Below, piece after piece: positions 18,091 to 64,000 of a DNA stretch of 64,000 nucleotides. Source of the DNA: Hymenobacter cellulosilyticus (lineage in GTDB: Bacteria; Bacteroidota; Bacteroidia; Cytophagales; Hymenobacteraceae); assembly GCF_022919215.1 (NCBI RefSeq), contig NZ_CP095046.1, positions 913,501 through 977,500 on the forward strand, in the 5' to 3' direction. A program made the translations under genes and the position numbers. The notes beneath the pieces were generated by a model. The model was not told where the DNA came from. It worked only from the letters and a program-made list of their open reading frames with translations, and searched no databases. Within the stretch, counting starts at the first letter, position 1; the number at the start of each line of letters is the position of its first letter.

Positions 18091-19386
18091 TTAGCGCGCC
18101 AGCAAATACTCCCGCAACGCCTCGTAGCGCGGCTCCAGCATAGTGCTTTGCTTGGGCTGCCGCATCAGCTCGTGCAACGAGTCGGGCAGGGCAATGGCTT
18201 GCCCGATTAGCGGCTCGACCACCTCCGGAAACTTCACCGGGTGGGCTGTTTCCAAAAACAAGCCGTGCTGCCCGGGCCGGGTGTGCAGGTAGTCATTCAG
18301 GGCGTGAAAGGCCACCGCGCCGTGCGGGTCGAGCATGTAGCCGGTTTGCTGGTACACCTGCTCGATGGTGGCACTAGTCGTTTCGTCGCTCACGGTGCAG
18401 CCGTGGATCAGGCCGCTGATGGTAGCGTGGCTTTGGGCAAACAGCTCCAGAATGCGGGTAAAGTTGCTAGGATTGCCCACGTCCATGGCGTTGGATAGGG
18501 TAGCCACGGCGGCCTTAGCGGCAAAGTCACCAGTGCGTAAGTAGCTGGCCACAGAGTCGTTGGCGTTGCAGGCGGCCACGAAGTGCGCTACCGGCAGCCC
18601 CGACACGTAGGCCAGCAGGCCGGCGCAGAGGTTGCCGAAGTTGCCACTGGGCACGGCCACCACCGGCGCCTCCGGGTGTTCCCACTGCTGCCAGGCGTAG
18701 ATGTAGTACAACTGCTGGGGCAGCCAGCGGGCCACGTTGATGGAGTTAGCCGAGGTCAGCGTCAAATGGCTCGTGACGGCGGCATCAGTAAAGGCCTGCT
18801 TCACCAGCTGCTGGCAGTCGTCGAAGTCGCCTTGCACTTCCAGGGCTGTAATGTTCTGCCCCAGGGCCGTGAGCTGCCGCTCCTGCACCGGGCTTACTTT
18901 GCCCGACGGATACAGAATAACCACGTCTACGCCTTCCACACCCAGAAACCCGTTGGCTACGGCCCCGCCGGTGTCGCCGGAAGTAGCTACCAGCACGGTT
19001 ACCTTCTTGGTTTGCTGCCGCGAGAAGTAGCCCAAGCAGCGGCTCATAAACCGAGCACCCACATCCTTAAATGCTAGCGTCGGGCCGTGGAACAACTCCA
19101 GGGCGGCAATTTGCCCGGTAACGGGTACCACCGGAAACGGGAAGTCTACGGTTTCAGCGCAGATGCGGGCCAGCTCGGCGGCGGGTATCGTGTCGCCCAC
19201 ATAGGGCTGCATCACCTGAAAGGCCAGCTCGGCTTTGGGCAAAGTTTTCAGGCTGGCCAGCAGCTCTGCGGAGAAGCGCGGAATGGTTTCGGGGAAGTAC
19301 AGGCCACCGTCGGGCGCCTGACCGGCAATGGTGGCGGCCCGGAAGTCGACATTCGGGGCCTGGTGCTTGAGGCTATAGTACTGCAT
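18091..19386 (-). CDS. thrC: Threonine synthase
   Basis: 431 residues. PLP enzyme converting O-phosphohomoserine to threonine. The PLP lysine motif is in GPTLAFKDVGARFM and the phosphate-binding loop in VATSGDTGGAVANG. The N-terminal YYSLKHQAPNVDFRAATIAG is typical of bacterial ThrC. It is the last gene of the thrABC operon and overlaps the 3' end of thrB by 14 bp, consistent with translational coupling. Confidence 0.95.
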   Translation of the reverse strand: MQYYSLKHQAPNVDFRAATIAGQAPDGGLYFPETIPRFSAELLASLKTLPKAELAFQVMQPYVGDTIPAAELARICAETVDFPFPVVPVTGQIAALELFHGPTLAFKDVGARFMSRCLGYFSRQQTKKVTVLVATSGDTGGAVANGFLGVEGVDVVILYPSGKVSPVQERQLTALGQNITALEVQGDFDDCQQLVKQAFTDAAVTSHLTLTSANSINVARWLPQQLYYIYAWQQWEHPEAPVVAVPSGNFGNLCAGLLAYVSGLPVAHFVAACNANDSVASYLRTGDFAAKAAVATLSNAMDVGNPSNFTRILELFAQSHATISGLIHGCTVSDETTSATIEQVYQQTGYMLDPHGAVAFHALNDYLHTRPGQHGLFLETAHPVKFPEVVEPLIGQAIALPDSLHELMRQPKQSTMLEPRYEALREYLLAR

Positions 19387-20329
19387 TGGAGTGAAGCTGC
19401 TGAGTCGGCACCACGCGCACCCCGCCGGGGCTGATGCGGGTAACGTAAGTATGAAAGTCGATGCCTAAATCGCTGTAAATCTGCTGCATGGCCTGGGCTA
19501 CGGCCTGGGCCGTTTCCTCGGTGCGGCTCAGCATGAAGATGGACGGGCCCGAGCCGGAAATGCCGCCGCCCAAAGCCCCGGCCAGCCGGCTCTGCTCTTT
19601 CACGGCCGCAAAGCCCGGAATCAGGATGCTGCGCACGGGCTCGATGATGACGTCTTCCAGGGAGCGGCCAATCAGGTCGTAGTCGCCCTTAAGCAGGCCC
19701 GCCACCAGCCCGCCCACGTTGCCCCATTGCCGGATGGCGTCTTTGAGCAAAACTTCCTTTTTGAGAATCTGGCGGGCATCGGAAGTCTTGACCTCAATCT
19801 GGGGATGGACCACTGTCACGTGCAGTTCAGGCGCGGGCAAAGTCACAATGTCGAGCTTGGGTTCGGTGGCCCGGATCAGCGTGACGCCCCCGTAGATGGC
19901 CGGCGCGATGTTGTCGGCGTGTTGCACGCCGGAGGCCACTTCCTCCCCGAACATGGCAAAGCGCACCAGCTCTTCCTGGCTGAATGGATTGCCCAGCAGC
20001 TCATTAGCCCCCACCACGGCCCCGGCCGCGCTGGCCGCACTGCTGCCGATGCCGCTGCCGGGCTTGATGTTTTTCTGAATGCGGACCTCGATGCCGGTGC
20101 CCGCCGGCGCTTCACGCAGCAAGGCCAACAGGGCCGCCCCGGCCACGTTGCGGGTAGGCTCGGTGGGCAGGTTATAGTCGTCCTCGTTGATGATGGTCAC
20201 GCCCGGCGTGTCGGTCAGGCGCAGGTGCATGGTGTCGGTGGGCGTGGCCAGGGCAAAGCCCAGCACGTCGAAGCCGCAGACCACGTTGGCCACGGTGGCC
20301 GGAGCCAGTACGGTTACAGAAGCAGACAT
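19373..20329 (-). CDS. thrB: Homoserine kinase
   Basis: 318 residues from ATG 20329. GHMP kinase that phosphorylates homoserine. Visible motifs are ATVANVVCGFDVLGFAL at the N-terminus, the ATP-binding loop KPGSGIGSSAASAAGAVVG, and GGGISGSGPSIFML near the C-terminus. It begins 28 bp after the thrA stop and overlaps thrC by 14 bp. Confidence 0.95.
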   Translation of the reverse strand: MSASVTVLAPATVANVVCGFDVLGFALATPTDTMHLRLTDTPGVTIINEDDYNLPTEPTRNVAGAALLALLREAPAGTGIEVRIQKNIKPGSGIGSSAASAAGAVVGANELLGNPFSQEELVRFAMFGEEVASGVQHADNIAPAIYGGVTLIRATEPKLDIVTLPAPELHVTVVHPQIEVKTSDARQILKKEVLLKDAIRQWGNVGGLVAGLLKGDYDLIGRSLEDVIIEPVRSILIPGFAAVKEQSRLAGALGGGISGSGPSIFMLSRTEETAQAVAQAMQQIYSDLGIDFHTYVTRISPGGVRVVPTQQLHSNAVL

Positions 20330-20357: not shown

Positions 20358-22800
20358 TTAGCCCCGGGCCGTGCGGATGATGTCGGCAAATACGCCCGAA
20401 GCCGTTACCTCGGCCCCGGCCCCGGCGCCTTTGATAACCATGGGCTGCTCGGGGTATCGGTCGGTGTAGAACAGCACCGCGTTGTCTTTGCCGTGCAGGG
20501 CGTAGAAATCGTGGCCGGGTGCAATGGACTGCAATCCTACGCTGGCTTTACCGTCGGCGTAGCGGGCCACGAATTTGAGCTTCTTGCCCTGAGCAGCGGC
20601 GGCTTCGTAGAGGCTGCGGAAATGGTCTTCGTGCACGGCCAGCTGCTCGTAGAAGTCTTCCACGCTGCCCTGCATGCACGACTCGGGCAGGAAGGACACG
20701 TTCTGAATCTGCTCCATTTCCAGCTTTTCACCGGTTTCCCGGGCCAGAATCAAAATCTTGCGGGCCACGTCGGTGCCGCTGAGGTCGAGGCGGGGGTCGG
20801 GCTCGGTATACCCTTCGGCCTGGGCCTGGCGCACCACCTCGGCGAAGGGCCGCTTACCGTCGTAGTTATTGAATACGAAGTTGAGCGTGCCCGACAGTAC
20901 CGCCTCAATCCGGTTGACCACGTCGCCGCTGCGCAGCAGGTCGTTGAGCGTGCCAATGATGGGCAGGCCGGCACCCACGTTGGTTTCGAACAGAAAATCG
21001 GTATTGAACTCCTGGGCCAGCGACTTCAGTCGGGCGTAGTTCACGTACTCCGAGGCGCAGGCAATCTTGTTGCAGGCCACTACAGCCACACTTTTTTCCA
21101 GCAACGCTCCGTACACCTGGGCCACGTCGGCACTGGCTGTCACGTCCACAAACACGGCGTTGCGCAGGTTGCGGGCGTGAATGGCTTCGACCAGCGTAGG
21201 CAAGTGCAGCGGCTCGCCGTCGGCCAGGGCCTGCTTCCACTCACCGGGCTCCAGGCCGTGCTCGTGCAGGGCAAATTTGCTGCTGTTGGCCACGCCCACC
21301 ACCCGCACGTTGAGCTTGAGCTTTTCCTGGAGGTAGGCCTGCTGCCGGTCCAGCTGCTCCAGCAGCTTGCTGCCCACGTTGCCCACGCCCACCACAAACA
21401 GGTTGACCTGCTTGGCGGTGGCTTCGAAGAACGACTCGTGCAGCACGTTGATGGCCTTTTTCACGTCCTGGGCCCGAATCACGGTGGAAATGTTCTTCTC
21501 CGACGAGCCCTGGGCAATGGCCCGGATGTTGACCCCGTTGTTGCCCAGGGCCCCAAACATCCGGCCGCTGATGCCGGTGTGGTTTTTCATGTTCTCACCC
21601 ACCAGCGCCACAATGGCCAGGTCGGTTTCCAGGTGCAGCGGGTCCACTTTGCCCACGGCAATTTCGTAGGCAAACTCCTCGTCCACGGAGCGTTGGGCCG
21701 CCGCCGCGTCGCGGGCGTTGATGGCCACGCTGATGGAGTGCTCCGAGGAGCTCTGAGTTATCAGAATTACGTTGATTTTCTCCCGGGCCAGGGCTTCAAA
21801 CAGCCGCTTCGAAAAGCCCGGAATGCCCACCATGCCGCTGCCTTCGAGGCTAAGCAAGGCCAGCTGTGCAATGCTGGACAACCCGCGCACAATGTGGTTG
21901 TTGGCCGGCGGACTCACTTCCACCAGAGTGCCGTGGTCGGTGGGGCGAAGGTGTTCTTGATCCACAACGGAATGCCCTGGCTCATCACCGGCTGAATGGT
22001 GGGCGGGTAGAGCACCTTGGCCCGAAGTGCGACAGTTCCATGGCTTCCTGGTAGGAAATGCGCGGAATGGGCCGGGCGTGGGGCACCAGGCGCGGGTCGG
22101 CCGTCATCATGCCGCTCACGTCGGTCCAGATTTCCAGGCGGCTGGCGCCCAGGGCTCCAGCAAAAATGGCGGCCGTGTAGTCGGAGCCGCCGCGGCCCAG
22201 CGTGGTGGTAATGCCCTGTTCGTCGGCGGCAATAAAGCCCGGCACCAGGTATAAAGCTTCCGGTTGGCCGGCTACGAAGTCGTTGATGAGCTGATTGGTA
22301 GCGGCAAAGTCGACGGCGGCAAAGCCGTGCTGGGAATTGGTGCGGATCAGCTGGCGGCTATCCTGCCACTGGTGGGCTACCTGCCGGCCTTTGAGGCTGG
22401 CCGCCACGATTTGCGAGGAAAGCAGCTCCCCGAAGCTCATCACCCGGTCGAGGGTACGCACGCTCAGTTCCCGGAGCAGGAACACCCCGTCGCAGATGCT
22501 TTCCAGCTCGTTGCAGTGCTTCTTGACCAGGCTCAGCACGCTGCTCTGGCTTACCACCGGCACCAGCTCCCGGGCGGCTTCCATGTGGCGGCTTTCGATG
22601 TGGCGCAGGCGTTCCTTGTAGTCCTCCTGCCCGGTGGCAGCAAGGCGGCCGGCTTCAATCAGCGCGTCGGTAATGCCGCCCAGGGCCGATACTACCACGA
22701 TGGTGGTTTCCTGCTGGGCCGCGGCCGTTGCAATGTCAATAACCTTGGAAATGTTGGCCGCATTGGCCACCGACGTACCCCCGAATTTTAGAACCTGCAT
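20358..22800 (-). CDS. thrA: Bifunctional aspartate kinase/homoserine dehydrogenase I (two frameshifts)
   Basis: About 814 residues after repair, the normal ThrA size. The kinase domain starts MQVLKFGGTSVANA and includes FGELLSSQIVAASL and TTLGRGGSDYTAA. Two ACT domains follow, then homoserine dehydrogenase with FVVGVGNVGSKLLEQL, CNKIACAS and LSGTLNFVFNNYD. The frame breaks in GGCCC at 22019-22023 (one base restores FGAKVLYPPTIQPVMSQGIP) and in GGGG at 21942-21945 (one base restores FAPTDHGTLVE). Catalyses the first and third steps from aspartate to threonine. First gene of the operon, regulated by the leader at 22801-23040. Confidence 0.95.
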
Positions 22801-22826
22801 ACCGTTTAATGTAGAAAGAACACACG

Positions 22827-22875
22827 AAAAAGCCCGGGCGTGGAGGAATCCCCTGTGGGGTCCTCGGCTCGGGCT
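22827..22875 (-). terminator. Attenuator terminator of the thr operon
   Basis: On the minus strand AGCCCG (22875-22870) pairs with CGGGCT (22836-22831), with inner GAGGA/TCCTC and CCCC/GGGG pairing, then a T tract (22831-22827). It lies about 30 bp upstream of thrA and is the transcription stop arm of the attenuator. Confidence 0.8.
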
Positions 22876-22930
22876 GCAACTCTGAAAAGAAACGTTGGGA
22901 AAAAGAGGTAGGTGCAGCCCGGTTACCGGG
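22868..22930 (-). promoter_or_regulatory. thr attenuator antitermination segments
   Basis: Read on the minus strand: segment 1, CCCGG (22930-22926), in the last codons of the leader ORF; segment 2, CCGGGCTGCA starting right after the stop codon (from 22922 to 22913); segment 3, TGCAGCCCG (22878-22870); segment 4, CGGGCT (22836-22831). Segments 1:2 form a hairpin with the leader stop TAA in the loop, 2:3 share a perfect 9-bp pairing, and 3:4 form the terminator. This is the classical layout of ribosome-mediated attenuation. Confidence 0.75.
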
Positions 22931-23009
22931 TTGTTGTGACCATACCTGTGACTGTTGTAATGACAGTCAGGGCGCGGGAAAAAGCAGCTGTAGCGGTTGG
23001 CTGAAGCAT
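22923..23009 (-). CDS. thrL: thr operon leader peptide
   Basis: A 28-residue ORF whose C-terminal part reads TVITTVTGMVTTTR, with 7 Thr, 3 Val and 1 Ile in 13 residues just before the final Arg. Such regulatory runs are expected upstream of thrA, since ThrA products feed both threonine and isoleucine. The stop TAA sits in the loop of a CCCGG/CCGGG hairpin. No Shine-Dalgarno is visible, which is normal for this phylum. Start ATG 23009 lies 22 bp after a -7-like box. Translation of this peptide is inferred. Confidence 0.75.
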   Translation of the reverse strand: MLQPTATAAFSRALTVITTVTGMVTTTR

Positions 23010-23031
23010 CAGGCGCGTTGAATATTGAGCC

Positions 23032-23038
23032 CAAAGTA
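23032..23038 (-). promoter_or_regulatory. -7-like box of the thr leader
   Basis: On the minus strand TACTTTG, one base shorter than TAnnTTTG, lies 22 bp before the leader-peptide ATG. Confidence 0.35.
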
Positions 23039-23169
23039 GTGAATTATCCGGCCCGCGCAACGCCTTCCCCGCTTTAAAGCGTGTTAAATTTTTGCTCAGC
23101 CCGTCCAGCTTGCCACCCGCCGCCCCTCCGGCGCTGCTCGTCCAAAGCCCCTGACCGGCGCTGACCGCT

Positions 23170-23379
23170 ACTGTTCCTGCCCTCCTTGCCACCGCTCCTG
23201 CGATGGTTTCCACCGTCCCTGCGGTCATTGCCACCGTCTCTGCGATAATTCACACTGTCTCTGCGGTCATTGCCACATTCTCTGCGATGATTCACGCTGC
23301 CCCTGCGCCCGTTGCCGGCCTCTCTGCAATGATTCACACCGCCTCTGCGAAGGTTACCGGCCTCTCTCTAATGATTCAC
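23170..23379. repeat. Ten tandem 21-bp degenerate repeats
   Basis: Ten consecutive units of exactly 21 bp, with a shared core TCTGCG-N3-ATT and alternating ends CAC or GCC, giving a partial 42-bp period. No unit has lost length. The plus frame would encode heptads such as TVSAVIA and TFSAMIH, and the minus frame GNDRRDG-type heptads, but neither has a convincing start or family. It lies between the thr leader and the prfA promoter. The remainder of 23045-23510 shows no gene. Confidence 0.8.
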
Positions 23380-23514
23380 GCCGGAGTAGATGGTCTAGGG
23401 GTTTGGGACGCTGACTTCCGCCGCTTTGGCGGCTTGGCGCAGCCAATGTAGGGGCTACCCTATATTCTATCAGTTACCTGGAACGCGGGCCCGGGTTCAT
23501 CGTGTTTGTTTCCT

Positions 23515-23551: not shown

Positions 23552-24621
23552 ATGCTAGATAAACTGGAGGCCATTCGCCAGCGCTACGAAGACGTAAACG
23601 AGCAGCTGATGCAGCCCGAGGCCATGAGCGACATGAAGCGCTACAAGACCTTGAATAAAGAGTATAAGGACCTCGGCAAAATCGTGACCGAGTACCGGAA
23701 TTATCAGCAGGTGCTCTCCAACATCGAGGGCGCCCGCGAAGTTATTGCCACCGAAAAGGACGAGGACTTCCGGCAGATGGCCAAAGACGAGCTCGAAACC
23801 CTGCTGCCCGAGCAGGAACGCCTCGAAACCGTCATCAAGGAGCTGCTGATTCCCAAAGACCCGAACGACTCGAAGGATATCATCATGGAAATCCGGGCCG
23901 GGGCCGGTGGCGACGAAGCGGCCATCTTCGCCGGCGACCTGCAGCGCATGTACATGCGCTTTGCTGAGCGCCAGGGCTGGAAGATGGAGCTCGTGGACGC
24001 TACCGAAGGCACTTCGGGTGGTTACAAGGAAATTATCCTGGCCGTAAAAGGCGAGGACGTGTACGGCAAGCTTAAGTTTGAGAGCGGCGTGCACCGCGTG
24101 CAGCGCGTGCCGGCCACCGAAACCCAGGGCCGCATTCACACCTCGGTGGCTTCCATCGTGGTAATGCCCGAGGCCGAGGAACTCGACGTACAGATTGACA
24201 TGAACGACGTGCGCAAGGACCTGTTTATGTCGTCGGGCCCCGGTGGTCAGTCGGTAAACACGACCTACTCGGCCGTGCGCCTCACCCACTTGCCCACCGG
24301 CCTGGTGGCCCAGTGCCAGGACCAGAAGTCGCAGCTCAAGAACTTCGACAAGGCCCTGCAGGTACTTCGCTCCCGCCTCTACGAAATTGAGCTGGCCAAA
24401 AAGAACGAAGCCGAAGGCGCCCAGCGCAAGAGCATGATTGGCGGCGGCGACCGGTCGGACAAAATCCGCACCTATAACTACCCCAGGGCCGCGTTACCGA
24501 CCATCGCATCGGCTACACGGTCTACAACCTGGCCAGCGTGATGGAAGGCAACATCGACGACTTCGTCGAGCAGCTGCGCATCGCCGAAAGCGCCGAGCGT
24601 CTGCAGGAAGGCGTGGCGTAA
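23552..24621 (+). CDS. prfA: Peptide chain release factor 1 (one frameshift)
   Basis: About 356 residues after repair. Recognises UAA and UAG stop codons and triggers peptide release. The catalytic GGQ is in [17 protein letters not shown], and the PAT-type stop-recognition region appears as [16 protein letters not shown]. The frame breaks in CCCC near 24481-24484; one extra C restores [19 protein letters not shown] and the normal C-terminus up to 24621. An intact release factor is essential, so a real disruption is very unlikely. Confidence 0.94.
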
Positions 24622-62983: not shown

Positions 62984-62997
62984 GGCTTGGAAAAAGG

Positions 62998-63108
62998 TTG
63001 GCGGCGACCGACTCTCCCGCCGGTGAAGGCAGTACCATAGGCGCTACGGGGCTTAACTGCTCTGTTCGGAATGGGAAGAGGTGAACACCCGTGCTAAAGC
63101 CACCATTA
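62998..63108 (-). rRNA. rrf: 5S ribosomal RNA
   Basis: The minus strand reads GGTGGCTTTAGCACGGGTG, then CCCATTCCGAACAGAGCAG, CGCCTATGGTACTGCC and GGGAGAGTCGGTCGCCGCC, the conserved order of a bacterial 5S rRNA. Boundaries are approximate by a few bases. About 90 bp separate it from the 3' end of 23S. Confidence 0.88.
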
Positions 63109-63196
63109 CTGGTGTCAGGATCACATGCTAGTGAAACTGTCAAATCGTTGACGCAGGAAACGGGTAAGAAGAAAAAGAAACAAAAGAGCTTGGTCT

Positions 63197-64000
<804 letters not shown>

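Follow-up and report, generated by a model that had tools for sequence, protein, structure and literature searches.

In the trpL leader of Escherichia coli, four RNA segments pair in alternative ways and the stop codon of the leader peptide lies between segments 1 and 2. A protector hairpin 1:2 is a feature of this trp-type scheme and is not taken here as defining all ribosome-mediated attenuators. In E. coli thrL, a Thr/Ile-rich leader peptide precedes thrA and the ribosome determines the choice between antiterminator and terminator; RF00506 (Thr_leader) is the Rfam family of this leader. To our knowledge, amino-acid control in Bacteroidota is little mapped. The Bacteroid-trp motif of this phylum precedes trp genes. 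It is listed among the cis-regulatory RNAs of this group (RF01692; Weinberg et al. 2010, PMC2864571). In Flavobacterium psychrophilum, amino-acid operons were reported to show strong signs of leader-peptide attenuation in their upstream regions, and conserved elements to precede pheA and hisG (PMC9723704), and leader-like short ORFs are mentioned for Bacteroides thetaiotaomicron (PMC7366714). In view of these three reports, attenuation in Bacteroidota is not new. However, the word threonine is absent from the main text of the F. psychrophilum paper, and its section on attenuation gives no architecture. A search of the open-licence literature, with subscription papers outside its scope, found no paper on a thr leader of Bacteroidota, and within that literature the leader family presented here looks undescribed.

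We analysed a window of 64,000 nucleotides from Hymenobacter cellulosilyticus. On the minus strand at 22801-23040 the sequence reads as a leader ORF, a stop-codon hairpin, an antiterminator and a terminator, followed by thrA. We consider this region to be a ribosome-mediated transcription attenuator of thrABC, built like the trp and thr leaders of E. coli, and give this reading a probability of about 0.9. The features are as follows, from 5' to 3'.

23058-23060, minus strand: candidate -33 TTG element, 19 nt 5' of the -7-like box (sequence)
23032-23038, minus strand: promoter-like box TACTTTG, 29 nt 5' of the leader ATG (box kept in relatives)
ATG at 23009, TAA at 22925-22923, minus strand: leader ORF of 28 codons plus TAA, encoding MLQPTATAAFSRALTVITTVTGMVTTTR
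22949-22969, minus strand: hairpin within the leader ORF (TGACTGT...ACAGTCA), possible pause hairpin (MFE fold)
22930-22918, minus strand: 1:2 hairpin CCCGG-TAA-CCGGG, with the stop codon as loop (sequence and relatives)
22921-22913, minus strand: segment 2, CGGGCTGCA, 5' arm of the antiterminator (sequence, pairing tests)
22878-22870, minus strand: segment 3, TGCAGCCCG, 3' arm of the antiterminator, overlapping the 5' arm of the terminator (sequence, pairing tests)
22875-22827, minus strand: intrinsic terminator AGCCCGAGC...GCCCGGGCT plus T run (sequence, fold, terminator scan)
21985-22800, minus strand: 5' part of thrA, aspartokinase half up to a frame break (NCBIfam NF006959 positions 1-262)
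20358-21965, minus strand: 3' part of thrA in another frame, rest of the aspartokinase and homoserine dehydrogenase half (NF006959 positions 287-814)
19373-20317, minus strand: thrB, homoserine kinase (NF002288 and TIGR00191, above cut-off)
18091-19386, minus strand: probable thrC, threonine synthase, the 431-aa ORF next in line (translation read)

The preliminary description had reported a 28-codon ORF ending in a Thr/Val/Ile-rich run with its stop codon in a CCCGG/CCGGG loop, a segment after the stop perfectly complementary to the region of the terminator 5' arm, and a terminator with T residues just before thrA, and all of these are present on the minus strand. The ORF contains nine Thr codons, and its C-terminal half is rich in Thr, Val and Ile. 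Segments 2 and 3 are complementary over their full length and form a 9-bp antiterminator; the joint 2:3/3:4 score of the window was reached by 0 of 200 dinucleotide shuffles. The terminator arms (22875-22867 and 22839-22831, the latter followed by TTTT) enclose the inner stems GAGGA/TCCTC and CCCC/GGGG, the T run ends at 22827, and the thrA ATG (22800) lies 26 nt farther on. Over 200 nt the leader folds with a z of -2.86, with 2/200 shuffles equally good. Generic scans returned no terminator, the terminator scan being restricted to loops of 3-8, and no sigma-70-type promoter, a type that differs from the Bacteroidota promoter. The TACTTTG box resembles the Bacteroidota -7 element, and the TTG would correspond to the -33 consensus; this TTG stands at equal spacing from the -7-like box in three relatives (L004, L005, L053). 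The only other copy of CGGGCTGCACCTA in its own genome (L002) has no leader in the roughly 400 bases around it.

We infer a promoter, leader translation, stalling, termination and a threonine response. Transcription would start just 3' of the box, near 23035, and a ribosome would translate the 28-codon leader. If Thr-tRNA is plentiful, the ribosome would reach the stop codon and cover segment 2, segment 3 would pair with segment 4, and the terminator would form and end transcription before thrA. If Thr-tRNA is scarce, and possibly Val- or Ile-tRNA too, the ribosome would stall on the Thr run, leaving segment 2 free to pair with segment 3, and the polymerase would continue into thrA. Like thrL, the leader has a Thr/Ile-rich peptide ahead of thrA and a predicted ribosome-dependent choice between antiterminator and terminator, but it is unmatched by RF00506, its peptide and helices are different, and no Shine-Dalgarno site is visible in it. 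With trpL it shares the four-segment logic and the position of the stop codon, whereas the amino acid is another one and the 1:2 hairpin is, in our model, too weak to outcompete 2:3. From Bacteroid-trp it differs in the genes concerned and in having no RF01692 match, either in the window or in 13 related loci.

Besides this locus we read the regions upstream of thrA in the genus. Among 61 genomes, 50 had a ThrA match at E 1e-49 or better; G036 (3.7e-49) was left out with just 97 bases upstream, and the remaining 10 had distant matches alone. Together with nine species from a family search and one (L150) from the best 80 of 584 matches in a named genome collection, this gave 60 Hymenobacter species, of which 27, H. 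elongatus (L149) and H. roseosalivarius (L151) among them, carry the leader before thrA and 33 do not. None of the 33 leaderless regions passes the Thr-leader cut-off and, by reading, the remaining parts of the leader are missing too. Loss in close relatives had been put forward as a counter-test in the preliminary description: absence does occur in more than half of the species, while the window's nearest relatives (L004, L005, L006, L053) have kept the leader. Since leaderless species fall in at least two separate groups of the ThrA tree, we read the absences as losses. Alignment upstream of thrA, proposed in the same place, bore out the expectation, as the Thr/Ile run and compensatory changes in 2:3 and 3:4 recur over the 27 species. 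A promoter-like box of its own, as claimed there, also recurs: TACTTT[GA] or TAGCTT[TA] stands 25-31 nt 5' of the leader ATG in all 27 leaders, as a raw count. Terminator-like sites were found in 25 of the 27, the window included, against 3.1 expected from shuffles, so that a terminator with a T run stands before the first structural gene in most of them; the rule used detects no such site in L006 or L022, and in L016 the site is a different hairpin.

The pairings were compared with a script that permits one mismatch. In all 27 leaders the best helices have 5-8 pairs for 1:2 and 7-13 pairs for 2:3, and the best 3:4 helix has at least 8 pairs in 25, with 3 pairs in L006 and 4 in L016. The joint 2:3/3:4 score was equalled by at most 4/200 shuffles in 25 leaders, by 15/200 in L006 and by 39/200 in L016. 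Antiterminator and terminator share a strand, and the sharing is weak in the latter two leaders. For covariation we used 25 leaders in register, giving 18 distinct rows, and 16 rows for 3:4, which lies in another register in L022 and L023. For 2:3, 80.8% of cells are paired and 19 are changed on both sides; the values are 88.3% and 16 for 3:4, and 88.9% and 5 for 1:2. Each paired percentage was reached by 0/500 shuffles, and the counts of cells changed on both sides by 0/500 (2:3), 0/500 (3:4) and 9/500 (1:2), in statistics that treat related species as independent, which they are not. Helices slid by one or two positions are 32-53% paired, and the true cell counts of 2:3 and 3:4 exceed those of every slid version. 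Counted instead as base pairs in which both sides change at least once (6 in 2:3, 3 in 3:4, 1 in 1:2), the result is not unusual, being reached in 65, 281 and 486 of 500 shuffles. The central 2:3 pair is mismatched in 9/25 in-register leaders, or 6/18 distinct rows. Overall, 2:3 and 3:4 covary while sharing a strand, as in the classical switch.

Could regulation rest mainly on the 1:2 stop-codon hairpin, a possibility also for terminatorless relatives, with the terminator adding basal control? Such hairpins are common in Thr leaders: at a cut-off score of 8 or more, the stop codon lies in a hairpin loop in 24/27 Hymenobacter leaders and in 60/78 other Thr leaders (64/84 with six second copies of Hymenobacter loci), compared with 64/545 stops of open frames of at least 200 codons and 7.4% of 2,202 leaders with shuffled downstream bases. 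Most Chitinophagaceae leaders moreover keep the stop hairpin in the absence of a terminator that passes our rule. The arms differ between groups at the same place (AACCC/GGGTT, ACGGG/CCCGT, CATGCCC/GGGCATG, CCCGC/GCGGG), which seems a better argument for the stop hairpin than the variation within the alignment A3 discussed below. The covariation of 2:3 and 3:4 on a common strand nevertheless speaks for the classical switch, and, because the 5' arm of 1:2 belongs to the reading frame, the need to keep Thr codons explains part of the conservation of this arm; we therefore find this alternative unlikely. The stop-in-loop geometry alone is not new, because E. coli trpL has the same arrangement.

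The leader ORF itself could be incidental, and the space that separates thrA from the divergent prfA no more than a plain terminator or a structured 5' UTR. A terminator-like hairpin is indeed there, and the 33 leaderless thrA genes of the genus could be cited in favour. But the codons argue otherwise. The peptides have 27-32 codons in the 22 leaders examined for this and end in, for example, TGMVTTTR, TGIITGITTR, TGTTVTTTR or TGIITG. Counted back from the stop, Thr is found at codon -2 in 27/27 leaders, at -3 in 24/27, at -4 in 15/27, at -6 in 21/27, at -7 in 15/27 and at -9 in 16/27. At codon -6 all four synonyms (ACA, ACC, ACG, ACT) occur, so a run of codons for the product amino acid is conserved by position and with synonymous codons. 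Near-fixed codons are found at -2 (ACC in 27/27) and -3 (ACA in 23/24), as expected where the coding strand doubles as a hairpin arm. In addition, segment 2 and its pairing with segment 3 covary, and the regions that lack the ORF lack the other leader parts as well. Taken together, these observations make an incidental ORF very improbable. A leader that binds a metabolite or a protein (a riboswitch or ThrRS-type autoregulation) and makes no use of the ORF would also place conserved structure ahead of a biosynthetic operon, but it is less credible still, as the conservation sits in the ORF and in simple helices with no aptamer-like core, and Rfam gave no match for the window leader at the gathering threshold and, at E up to 10 over 22780-23100, just four unrelated, sub-threshold families. 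RF00506 is absent from the matches at both levels, and no Rfam family matched in 13 related loci. As a ribosome-mediated attenuator, the locus offers a testable Thr switch with covariation support and no Rfam family.

We modelled the effect of ribosome position by folding the part of each leader that runs from 90 nt ahead of the last base of the stop codon to a point just beyond segment 3, holding a ribosome footprint (-18 to +12 relative to the A site) unpaired and reading out the mean probability of the 2:3 G-C pairs. Over the 27 leaders this probability is 0.75-1.00 when codon -3 occupies the A site, 0.21-1.00 for the last Thr codon (-2) and 0.00-0.49 for codon -1, and it does not exceed 0.03 for the stop. 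The series places the switch point between the Thr run and the stop, and the fall at the stop is in large part a product of the mask itself, because segment 2 begins beside the stop codon. In the partition-function model without a ribosome, 2:3 has a probability of 0.89-1.00 in the 27 leaders. An untranslated leader is therefore predicted to read through, unless folding kinetics decide otherwise, which is a departure from the textbook trp scheme. In this equilibrium model 1:2 does not beat 2:3 in the untranslated leader. The 1:2 hairpin thus appears too weak to prevent 2:3 at equilibrium, and protection by it would be a kinetic possibility only. Of the mutually exclusive 1:2, 2:3 and 3:4 pairings set out in the preliminary description, the shared strand of 2:3 and 3:4 stands, while exclusion of 2:3 by 1:2 does not hold at equilibrium.

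The hairpin within the ORF lies just 5' of the last Thr codons and has counterparts with changed pairs in L004 and L005. In the window it was matched by 13/300 shuffles, a modest result, and in 12/27 Hymenobacter leaders at most 15/300 shuffles were as good for this hairpin (P0). These data are suggestive only of a real element, possibly a polymerase pause site.

Set against other systems, the Hymenobacter leader is a switch of a familiar kind with good comparative support, at a site for which we found no record; the unusual part is its relatives without a clear terminator. The locus had been presented as a clear Bacteroidota example, which it is, although not an isolated one, as Thr leaders recur more widely in the class Bacteroidia. 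We gathered ThrA genes from the family, order, phylum and class and from the named genome collection (best 80 of 584 matches). Counting duplicates, an ORF with a Thr/Ile run above the cut-off was found in 111 of the 237 upstream regions, the collection part being these best 80 of 584. Many ThrA genes have no Thr leader; examples are three to eight from another genus of the family (L069-L076) and most of those from farther away in the phylum. The leaders outside Hymenobacter were sorted into types by eye. In the A-type, present in other genera of the family and some members of the class, the Thr/Ile run is followed by a GCCTTCC...GGAAGGC-like hairpin, and 13/16 have terminator-like sites where shuffles predict 0.0. 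A third group of eight leaders (L101, L108, L115-L117, L121, L122, L233) has the stop hairpin, weak in L233, and no C-type motif, with a terminator-like site in 1/8. Among the loci from other genera of the family (L077-L089), 11/13 have Thr/Ile leaders, most with CCTTCC/GGAAGG terminators, and L084 and L089 have none.

The C-type set of 51 leaders is made up of L093, L094, L120 and 48 of the 71 non-Hymenobacter loci among the best 80 of 584 (within L158-L223). Its records carry the names of genera of Chitinophagaceae or of unplaced Bacteroidetes. An arm such as GGGTTGT pairs with the last codons; the stop codon forms part of the loop in 49/51 and lies 3' of the hairpin in L203 and L218. After the hairpin follow CATAT (42/51), CATA (47/51) and GGGC (44/51), and GC(C/T) with GGGC in order in 44/51. 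Hymenobacter leaders share the stop-in-loop hairpin, but CATAT occurs within 80 nt after the stop in 0/27 of them and a terminator is present. Terminator-like sites were found in 3/51 C-type leaders against 1.1 expected, 48 of these 51 loci being from the best 80 of 584, and we use terminatorless for leaders with no terminator passing the rule used. Under a relaxed rule (a stem of 5 that includes one or more G-C pairs, and T at 5 of 6 positions), 10/51 have a weak, mostly A/T-rich hairpin with a T run, as in L199 and L218, a count uncorrected for chance. This terminatorless kind, 48 of 71 non-Hymenobacter loci among those best 80, asks how a leader peptide controls a gene without a terminator.

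In 46 C-type leaders the stretch from stop to thrA measures 82-124 nt and past the hairpin is unstructured (median MFE z 0.13). Its ratio of C over G is 1.53, compared with 0.87 in 16 leaderless relatives; the ratios of 1.46 in A-type and 1.45 in Hymenobacter leaders mean that the C bias is no proof of a Rho site. In the A3 alignment (47 rows) 94.3% of the cells of the stop hairpin are paired and five are changed on both sides, all at one pair, and RNAalifold found the stop hairpin alone, with one pair changed on both sides. As most A3 pairs hardly vary, sequence constraint and structure cannot be told apart there. Rfam gave no match in eight C-type loci (L158, L165, L182, L198, L208, L217, L120, L093).

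Three roles for C-type elements were considered and rejected. A C-type antiterminator was sought as a downstream complement of the 3' arm, which beat 96% of shuffles in just 2/51 leaders. A downstream promoter at CATAT is not indicated, as reading found no TAnnTTTG-like box 3' of the motif. For CATAT as a general element, the matches were centred on thrA or lay in open frames. With model R1, 18/20 genomes each yielded a single match at E 7.5e-8 or lower; by coordinates, all 18 lie just upstream of thrA, and among the 150 first-look candidates scored per genome no other fell below E 0.015. This is weak evidence of specificity, since the genomes had been picked for bearing a Thr leader before thrA, the alignment behind the model already contains most of the 18 matches, and the scoring covered only those 150 candidates per genome. 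A search with the CATAT pattern gave 11 matches in 8/16 genomes, of which 4 lie at thrA and 7 inside open frames of at least 182 codons; the reversed pattern gave 0.

Quick ThrA trees, with SH-aLRT support only, were built without rows whose start was unreadable (L005 and L185 in the first tree, L296 and L298 in the second). In both, Hymenobacter ThrA groups with that of the C-type Chitinophagaceae (SH-aLRT 99 and 98). The A-type-bearing genera of Hymenobacter's own family group with A-type genes of other families (SH-aLRT 99, second tree), and the ThrA rows available from L077-L089 belong to another lineage than Hymenobacter ThrA. Holding the family's ThrA together was rejected by the AU test (p 2e-29), for a group named after the tree had been seen. 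The architecture labels need 10 changes on the first tree and 13 on the second, against shuffled means of 51 and 46; the Thr leader architectures, of which the class has more than one, thus cluster on the ThrA tree. Exceptions in both trees are L093 and L094, which have the C-type motif and yet stand apart from the other C-type rows. Architecture follows the ThrA tree only in part, since on the first tree 4 changes are required for the C label and 3 for the stop-hairpin-only label. A likely history is transfer, or ancient paralogy, of thrA together with its leader.

By parsimony, the Hymenobacter terminator is probably derived, since stop-hairpin leaders outside the genus are mostly without terminators. 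A further step would be to derive the Hymenobacter attenuator, with its terminator, from an older Bacteroidota Thr leader that did without an intrinsic one. In such a leader, a ribosome on the Thr run or at the stop would set whether the stop hairpin forms, and so decide whether Rho or another factor ends transcription before thrA within the unstructured, C-rich, G-poor stretch of about 80-120 nt with CATAT...GGGC...GCYG. We regard this scenario as tentative and rather doubtful. Naming Rho as the factor is a guess, and the weak hairpins with T runs in 10/51 C-type leaders lower its odds. If the scenario were true, an amino-acid operon would be under leader-peptide attenuation that works through a non-intrinsic terminator and has an RNA motif of its own.

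The operon downstream of the leader deserves a comment of its own. The thrA product is a bifunctional aspartokinase/homoserine dehydrogenase I (NCBIfam), and the ORF at 18091-19386 is probably thrC. In this assembly thrA is divided between two frames, with the break at 21965-22020; it may be an assembly indel or a real break, and the operon of this copy may for that reason be non-functional or mis-assembled. Among the 61 genomes the open frame of thrA has 765-934 aa in most relatives, and that of G010 (L015) is short too, with 313 aa. The divergent neighbour is prfA (release factor 1) at 23552-24541, whose profile matches end at position 308 of 347 and 316 of 361, so prfA too seems to be frame-broken near its end. 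Between prfA and the leader lies a degenerate 21/42-bp tandem array (23175-23383). At 62996-64000, on the minus strand, a 5S rRNA and the 3' part of a 23S rRNA are cut by the end of the window.
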